Assembly: GCA_037386965.1 (NCBI GenBank) | Contig: JARRLN010000003.1 | Location: 1 to 48,297, forward strand | Direction of reading: 5' to 3' | DNA length: 48,297 nt | Origin: Nitrospirota bacterium | GTDB taxonomy: Bacteria; Nitrospirota; Thermodesulfovibrionia; Thermodesulfovibrionales; JdFR-86 | In this document: in pieces, positions 13,774 through 48,297 of the stretch | Layout: the number at the start of each line of letters is the position of its first letter | Position numbering within the stretch: the stretch's first letter is position 1 | Notes under the pieces: model-generated | Seen by the model: only the letters and a program-made list of their open reading frames with translations | Told to the model about the DNA's origin: nothing | Database searches by the model: none | Position numbers and translations under genes: made by a program

Positions 13774-13802
13774 TTGAAATAAACATTGTTTTAGGCTTCA
13801 AT
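13774..13802 (+). promoter_or_regulatory. candidate leaderless promoter of the kinase-like gene
   Basis: TTGAAA (13774-13779), a 17-base spacer and TTCAAT (13797-13802, 4 of 6) end 7 bases before the ATG at 13810. No Shine-Dalgarno sequence is present. Weaker than the other examples. Confidence 0.4.
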
Positions 13803-13809
13803 GTCATGT

Positions 13810-14562
13810 ATGAAGCGAACCGTCCCCGTGGGGCGCGCAAAGAGCAGGGCGGAGATCGAGGCCTTCGGCCTGGAGCCCGGGTTTCGCATCAACAGAAAGT
13901 ACGAGGTCCTCTCCCTCCTGGGCTCGGGCTGGGAGGGGGAGGTGTACAAGATCGTCGAGGTCCGCACCGGCATAGAGCGCGCCGCCAAGCTCTTCTTTCC
14001 ACAGCGCAACCCGCGGGGCAGGACGGCCCGCCGCTATGCCAAGAAACTGCACAAGCTCCGGCACTGCCCGGTCATCATCAAGTACCACACGGAGGAGACC
14101 TTTTCTTTCAGGGGCATGCCCATCATGGCCCTCATCTCGGAGTATGTGGAGGGCGAGCTTCTCTCGGACCTCCTCAAGGCCCTGCCCGGCCGCCGCCTGA
14201 GTCCTTTCGAGGCTGTTCACCTCCTCTACGCCCTGGTCCGGGGGATTGAACAAATCCACCAGCAGGGCGAGTACCACGGCGACCTGCACCTGGCCAACAT
14301 CATCGTCAGCCGCTACGGCCTCACCTTCGACATCAAGCTCCTGGACCTGTACCACTGGGAGGCCCCCAGGCGCGAGAACAAGCAGCAGGACATCGTGGAC
14401 CTCATCCGGGTCTTCTACGAGTGCCTGGGCGGGGCCCGCCATTATGCCCGGCAGCCCGAGGCGGTCAAGTACATCATCTCGGGCCTGAAACGCTCCCTCA
14501 TCCTGAGGAAGTTCCGCTCCATGGGGCAGCTCCGCAAGCACCTGGAAACGATGCAGTGGTAA
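13810..14562 (+). CDS. small serine/threonine protein kinase-like protein
   Basis: A 250-residue single-domain protein-kinase fold. The glycine loop is LGSGWEGEVYKI, the ATP lysine K60 lies in RAAKLF, the catalytic loop is YHGDLHLANII (HGD in place of HRD; D158 and N163 kept), and the DFG position reads LLDLYHW with D179. The domain is short and ends with a few helices, with no sensor or membrane segment. HGD loops are seen in several kinase-like families with atypical substrates. Activity is plausible because Lys, Asp, Asn and Asp are retained. An in-frame ATG at 13801 is an alternative start. Confidence 0.8.
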   Translation: MKRTVPVGRAKSRAEIEAFGLEPGFRINRKYEVLSLLGSGWEGEVYKIVEVRTGIERAAKLFFPQRNPRGRTARRYAKKLHKLRHCPVIIKYHTEETFSFRGMPIMALISEYVEGELLSDLLKALPGRRLSPFEAVHLLYALVRGIEQIHQQGEYHGDLHLANIIVSRYGLTFDIKLLDLYHWEAPRRENKQQDIVDLIRVFYECLGGARHYARQPEAVKYIISGLKRSLILRKFRSMGQLRKHLETMQW

Positions 14563-14682
14563 GCCCCCGGGAATGCCGGAATCCGTCAGATTTGACCATT
14601 TGCGTCTCTATCATCCTTCGCCCGCCGTACCCCCGAACGGCAAAAGTGCTTTTATCCTCTCCGCTTAGGACGTTTTCCCCAG

Positions 14683-14720
14683 GTGTGCGTTTTTGGCACT
14701 TTTCTTGCTTAAACGCACAC
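14683..14720 (+). promoter_or_regulatory. sigma-54 promoter nested in a 10-bp perfect inverted repeat
   Basis: TGGCACT-TTTC-TTGCT (14694-14709) matches the sigma-54 consensus TGGCACG-N4-TTGCW, with the GG and GC doublets at -24/-12 spacing. It is flanked exactly by GTGTGCGTTT (14683-14692) and AAACGCACAC (14711-14720), a perfect inverted repeat, so the promoter sits in the loop and the right arm reaches the expected start site near 14720. The target is the two-CW gene at 14754. A further small inverted repeat, AAAAG-TG-CTTTT, lies at 14642-14653. Confidence 0.85.
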
Positions 14721-14753
14721 GGGCGCGTAAGTACAGAAGAAGGGGAGGTAGCG

Positions 14754-14990
14754 ATGAACTGTTGGGAGTTCAAGCAGTGCGGGCGAGAAGCGGGCGGAGC
14801 GAATGCCGAGAAGCTGGGCATCTGTCCCGCCTACCCGAACCACGGCAAGCACTGTGCCCGCATCGCGGGCACCTTCTGTGGAGGCGCCGTGCAGGGCACC
14901 TTTGCACAGAAGCTTCCTTCGTGCATGCAGTGCGAGTTTTACAACAGCCCCCATTATGACAAGTCTTACGTCATGTATCAGGCGTCCTAG
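14754..14990 (+). CDS. two-CW domain protein
   Basis: A 78-residue cysteine-rich protein that begins MNCWEFKQCGRE, the first CW motif, followed by CPAYPNHGKHCARIAGTFCGG and a closing CMQCEFYNS. Eight or so cysteines in this order define the two-CW family, usually fused to signalling domains but here free-standing. It probably binds a metal or iron-sulphur cluster and may sense redox state; that is inference. It has a GGGGAGG Shine-Dalgarno sequence and its own sigma-54 promoter. A 16-bp hairpin lies directly after the gene. Confidence 0.85.
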   Translation: MNCWEFKQCGREAGGANAEKLGICPAYPNHGKHCARIAGTFCGGAVQGTFAQKLPSCMQCEFYNSPHYDKSYVMYQAS

Positions 14991-15004: not shown

Positions 15005-15039
15005 GAAGGAAAGCGCATCGTCCCGATGCGCTTTCCTTC
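15005..15039 (+). terminator. 16-bp hairpin after the two-CW gene
   Basis: GAAGGAAAGCGCATCG pairs perfectly with CGATGCGCTTTCCTTC around a TCC loop, 14 bases after the stop codon. It is very stable, but no T run follows. It could terminate transcription or protect the 3' end of the mRNA. Confidence 0.6.
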
Positions 15040-47694: not shown

Positions 47695-48297
47695 TCAGCC
47701 CGGGAGAAGTCCCAGGTTCTTCATCTTGGTTCTCAACGTCTTCCGGGAGACTCCCAGGAGCTCGGCCGCCCGGGACTGGTTCCAGTTGTCGGTTTCCAGG
47801 GCCTTGAGGATGACCCTTTTCTCTATCTCCATGAGGTTGAATTCTTCCCCGTCCGATGCGGGCTCCTCCTCGGGGCAGATGCGCAGGCGCCTGGGAATGC
47901 ACTCCTCGGTGATGAAATCGTAGGGGCAGAGGATGACGGCCCTTTCCACGGTGTTCTCGAGCTCCCGGACGTTTCCGGGCCATTCGTAGGCGGTCAGTAT
48001 ATCCATCACCGGCTCGTCGAACCCCCGGATGTCCTTGTTGTTCTTCTTCGCATAGAGCCCGAGGAAATGCTCCACAAGGGGGCGGATATCCTCCTTCCGC
48101 TCCCTGAGCGGAGGGACCTGGATGGTTATGACATTGAGGCGGTAATAGAGGTCGGACCTGAAATCGCCCTTCTGCACAGCCTCCTCGATGTTCCTGTTCG
48201 TGGCCGCCAGGACGCGGGAGTCCACCTTTATCTTGTTCTTCCCCCCCAGGCGATGGAACTCCCGAAGGTTGTCCAGGCTGTTCTCGATGGCGTGGCC
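47695..48297 (-). CDS. sigma-54-dependent transcriptional activator (3' part)
   Basis: C-terminal 200 residues of a bacterial enhancer-binding protein; the gene continues beyond the right edge. Visible are the AAA+ segments AATNRN, FRSDLYYRLNVI, PPLRERKEDI and WPGNVRELENTVE, then a Fis-type HTH (WNQSRAAELLGVSRKTLRTKM). The sensor domain and the GAFTGA loop are outside the window. A sigma-54 promoter lies at 14694, so sigma-54 control exists in this genome; whether this regulator acts there is unknown. Confidence 0.92.
   Translation of the reverse strand, partial: GHAIENSLDNLREFHRLGGKNKIKVDSRVLAATNRNIEEAVQKGDFRSDLYYRLNVITIQVPPLRERKEDIRPLVEHFLGLYAKKNNKDIRGFDEPVMDILTAYEWPGNVRELENTVERAVILCPYDFITEECIPRRLRICPEEEPASDGEEFNLMEIEKRVILKALETDNWNQSRAAELLGVSRKTLRTKMKNLGLLPG

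Follow-up and report, generated by a model that had tools for sequence, protein, structure and literature searches.

A probable sigma-54 promoter of a two-CW protein gene in a Nitrospirota bacterium lies within an inverted repeat that is not kept in the paralogous promoter

The window, the whole stretch of DNA analysed here, comprises 48,297 nucleotides of contig JARRLN010000003.1 from a Nitrospirota bacterium (assembly GCA_037386965.1), and the locus of interest is the intergenic region in front of a small two-CW protein gene. Directly upstream, at 13801-14562, lies a gene for a small stand-alone Ser/Thr-type protein kinase (Pkinase PF00069), which was not seen beside the paralogue of the two-CW gene or beside the close orthologues inspected. 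Between the kinase gene and the end of the two-CW transcription unit we distinguish the following features:

14583..14598, no strand assigned: palindrome CCGTCA-GATT-TGACCA, probably the upstream activating sequence of a sigma-54 enhancer-binding protein, judged by its conservation in the paralogue
14637..14655, no strand assigned: second conserved block ACGGCAAAAGTGCTTTTAT, between the activator site and the promoter
14683..14692, plus strand: left arm of the inverted repeat, GTGTGCGTTT, -37 to -28, identical in the paralogous promoter
14693..14709, plus strand: putative sigma-54 -24/-12 promoter TTGGCACTTTTCTTGCT, near-consensus, with GG and GC at canonical spacing; TTGGCACTCTTTTTGTA in the paralogue
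14711..14720, plus strand: right arm of the inverted repeat, AAACGCACAC, -9 to +1, in this copy only
14740..14751, plus strand: ribosome-binding site AAGGGGAGGTAG, 12/12 identical in the paralogue
14754..14990, plus strand: stand-alone two-CW-domain protein of 78 aa, one-CW subfamily (NF045718, E 1.9e-22)
15005..15039, no strand assigned: 16-bp perfect hairpin, probable transcript end, between the convergent two-CW and ABC-transporter genes

The assignment of the encoded protein to the two-CW family holds in part. Its score against NF045718 is 79.5 bits, for a curated cut-off of 35 bits, but of the two Cys-Trp motifs only the first CW is kept, the second being replaced by CA(R). In an alignment of 56 stand-alone two-CW relatives this replacement is shared by the window protein and seven close relatives (eight aligned sequences from six genomes), and most members of this one-CW subfamily have a similar Y-x-S-x-x-Y tail. 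A sequence search of the PDB returned no solved structural relative, the AlphaFold model computed without an alignment was unusable (pLDDT 42.8), and the term ‘two-CW domain’ was not mentioned in the literature searched.

Sigma-54 promoters are recognized by the GG and GC dinucleotides of the -24 and -12 elements at fixed spacing, within a near-consensus TGGCAC-N5-TTGC. All of these are present at 14693-14709, in intergenic sequence 61 bp before the ATG at 14754. The genome encodes RpoN (Sigma54_DBD match at C4:57897-58376) and contains about 20 AAA+ activator-like matches, and about ten further intergenic sites of the same -24/-12 form precede genes. Because the paralogous gene also keeps the element, albeit with a weaker -12, because RpoN and many activators are encoded, and because similar intergenic sites stand before other genes, the sequence evidence makes it very probable that the two-CW gene has a genuine sigma-54 promoter here, which upholds the original prediction in this respect.

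The key comparison is offered by the second two-CW gene in the same genome (about G000:C81:2237-2455), the only source of a homologous promoter available to us. The two proteins are 88% identical, and the gene copies differ at 3, 2 and 21 sites in codon positions 1, 2 and 3, respectively; both copies are under purifying selection. A PEP-CTERM protein gene (G000:C81:1102-1974, locus L051) lies directly downstream of the paralogous copy in the same orientation. Upstream homology spans from just past the kinase stop to the start codon, with 63% identity over the aligned bases, and the paralogue keeps the upstream palindrome, the left arm, the -24 element and the ribosome site. The left arm together with the -24/-12 element is identical at 23 of 26 positions; the 10/10 match of the left arm itself is mildly unexpected (p ~0.03 at 71% third-position identity).

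Where might an activator bind? Sites for sigma-54 activators are usually palindromes located about 80-200 bp upstream. The block AATCCGTCANATNTGAC, which contains the palindrome at 14583-14598, keeps 15 of its 18 bases in the paralogue, where the palindrome is perfect, CCGTCACATGTGACGG (CCGTCA-N4-TGACGG), and is the sole exact copy in the genome. It lies 110 bp before the -24 element in the window and 101 bp before it in the paralogue, a difference of about one helical turn. The second block, ACGGCAARARTGCTTTWAT, is also better conserved than its surroundings, with 16 of 19 bases kept in the paralogue versus 63% over the whole upstream region. Palindromes also occur 60-130 bp upstream of several other sigma-54-like sites of the genome, for example TGTCCCTTTTGGGACA before a transporter gene that we call YeeE-like by inspection. 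Judging by its conservation and placement, the CCGTCA-N4-TGACGG palindrome is probably an enhancer-binding-protein site, and a regulator would more plausibly bind there than at the arms that bracket the promoter.

The bracketing itself is as the original prediction described it. The 10-bp arms GTGTGCGTTT (14683-14692) and AAACGCACAC (14711-14720) are perfect reverse complements forming a 38-bp inverted repeat, and its 18-bp loop, TTGGCACTTTTCTTGCTT, carries GG at 14695-14696 and GC at 14707-14708 with the canonical 10-bp spacing, so that the dyad axis of the repeat, at 14701.5, falls on the exact midpoint of the two dinucleotides. If C14708 is taken as -12, the predicted +1 is at 14720 and the right arm does reach it, as had been proposed.

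How surprising is such an arrangement? Perfect repeats with arms of at least 10 bp and loops of 3-40 are common here, with 8 in the window versus about 3 in order-1 random sequence. The exact bracketing of one given promoter by such arms has a chance probability of ~2e-5, which makes pure chance an uncomfortable account; over some 15 sigma-54-type promoters of the genome the value becomes ~4e-4. Among 55 other sigma-54-like sites, drawn from this genome, from relatives and from further two-CW genes, no bracketing arm exceeds 6 bp, with the proviso that many of these sites were chosen by sequence only and some may be non-promoters. The bracketed arrangement is thus unusual, though it was noticed post hoc. 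No further inverted-repeat-bracketed sigma-54 site was found in the genome and relatives searched, and a phrase search of the literature for repeats flanking sigma-54 promoters found none. Another repeat with an 18-bp loop (arms GATAGTTT/AAACTATC, L034:1541-1574 on G000:C1) lies 57 to 24 bp before the -24 element of the sigma-54 site at C1:40829; a geometry shared by the two repeats was rejected, as loops of 18 are not enriched among the repeats in ~197 kb of the genome, partly overlapping.

The conservation of the repeat tells a different story from its geometry. The right arm is absent from the paralogue, which has GGAGGGCGGA at the same distance where the window has AAACGCACAC; the two agree at 2 of 10 positions without gaps, and at 5 of 10 once a gap of one base is allowed. 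The two promoters thus do not have the repeat in common, although the paralogue, with TTGTA instead of TTGC at -12, may be a copy in decay and a poor reference. When the 192-bp upstream region was searched as DNA against ~395 further genomes of the phylum, only the paralogue and short matches came up, and a search for related loci yielded three weak relatives and nothing else, two of the three labelled Nitrospirae. In front of the nearest orthologous genes (~60-70% identity), the 300 bp upstream hold no good sigma-54 element. Farther afield, sigma-54 elements precede 6 of 56 stand-alone two-CW genes, the window's own included, versus 0.7 expected from shuffles, and a reverse-strand control gave 0; none of the five elements outside the window is bracketed. 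Control by sigma-54 is thus a recurrent feature of two-CW genes; the bracket is not.

We consider it likely, though well short of certain, that a standard activator-dependent sigma-54 promoter drives a single small gene here, and that the repeat is specific to this copy and unneeded for the promoter design that the two copies have in common. RpoN holoenzyme would bind the -24/-12 element at 14693-14709, and transcription would begin near 14720 and stop at the hairpin at 15005-15039. The left arm would be shared sequence beside the -24 element, and the right arm either a coincidental match or the result of a change in this copy alone. Neither the second gene copy nor any of the relatives examined has the repeat, which is therefore probably not essential for control.

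In its layout this promoter comes close to known sigma-54/enhancer-binding-protein promoters, for example the ones in the PrsK/PrsR regulatory system for PEP-CTERM proteins (Haft et al. 2006, PMC1569441). As there, the unit consists of a single gene preceded by a long upstream non-coding region, with a separate upstream motif expected to bind an activator and a -24/-12 motif that ends ~45 bp before the start codon. The paralogous copy adjoins a PEP-CTERM gene, a further similarity, whereas the window gene itself encodes a two-CW protein and not a PEP-CTERM protein. PrsR itself was rejected as the activator: no match in the genome passes the TIGR02915 cut-off, the best reaching 436 versus 502.6 bits.

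Could the repeat be a control device nonetheless, as the original prediction held? A dimeric repressor or co-regulator on both arms of a split operator (-37 to +1) would exclude or bend the sigma-54 holoenzyme until released. The perfect arms, with their axis midway between GG and GC and the low chance probability of the bracketing, speak for this reading, as does the identity of the left arm in the paralogue, and a regulator acting beside and across a -24/-12 promoter has a precedent in BosR at the Borrelia rpoS sigma-54 promoter (PMC3037356). The BosR element also lies directly beside the promoter, but it is a direct repeat, TAAATTAAAT, with positive action, whereas the window has an inverted repeat for which no binding protein is known. 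At soxB of Bacillus thuringiensis (PMC4941409), the SoxR site is likewise an inverted repeat, of 11 bp, recognized by a sigma-54 activator; it lies 54 bp upstream of the start and does not enclose the promoter. Neither conservation nor co-variation of both arms is seen, given the paralogue without the right arm and the lack of a further DNA homologue in the ~395 genomes. The operator does not recur at other targets either: the 38-mer has no second copy in the 2.54-Mb genome with up to 3 mismatches allowed, the exact arm word GTGTGCGTTTT occurs genome-wide only at the window promoter and the paralogous one, its 22 one-mismatch matches are little above the 13 for a reversed-pattern control, and none of the 55 other sigma-54 sites is bracketed. 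The outcome named at the outset as refuting the layout, arms that orthologous promoters do not conserve, is thus what was observed, in the single homologous promoter available, and we regard a split operator as unlikely. Slightly less probable again is that it is genuine but unique to this lineage, with a dimeric regulator that sits on either side of the -24/-12 element and gates the sigma-54 closed complex; if true, this would be an unusual way of gating a sigma-54 promoter.

A role in RNA, in which the transcript of the upstream kinase gene (stop at 14562) would form a hairpin close to its 3' end that limits read-through or protects the mRNA end, appears improbable. The predicted RNA fold of 14675-14730 is stable (-21.7 kcal/mol, z -3.5, with an extra inner 4-bp stem), and the interval from the kinase stop to the promoter holds no second terminator-like site; however, the stem is followed by no U-tract on either strand, for which reason an intrinsic terminator at the repeat was rejected, and the paralogue does not have the kinase gene as a neighbour.

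The repeat might instead be a mutation scar left by a quasi-palindrome template switch, in which the nascent strand folded back through the partial complementarity of the sigma-54 core (GGCA/TGCT) and then used the left arm as its template. The left arm common to both copies, the right arm present only in the window, and the inner GGCA/TGCT stem predicted beside the long stem would agree with such an event. Yet with two copies only, a gain in one is indistinguishable from a loss in the other, and the right-arm region, at 5/10 with its one-base gap, is near background identity; we consider this origin very improbable. A supercoiling-driven cruciform switching the promoter off or on would agree with the single-strand DNA fold (-13.3 kcal/mol) but is scarcely credible for a repeat that is not conserved and whose 10-bp arms enclose an 18-nt loop, a poor geometry for extrusion.

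An ordinary activator-dependent sigma-54 promoter accompanied by an inverted repeat that is probably copy-specific and not essential is, therefore, the reading that we retain. On present evidence, sigma-54 appears to control a little-studied cysteine-rich family in some lineages, and a likely activator site is indicated. Elsewhere in this genome (G000), intergenic sites of the GTGGCAC-N5-TTGCT type lie at loci L034, L035, L037, L038, L040, L042 and L045, several of them with upstream palindromes, and the genes that follow appear by eye to encode secreted VWA, heme-motif, PilY1-like, YeeE-like and other surface proteins. Near the contig end, on the minus strand at 47707-48258, the window also carries the C-terminal part of a sigma-54 enhancer-binding protein.
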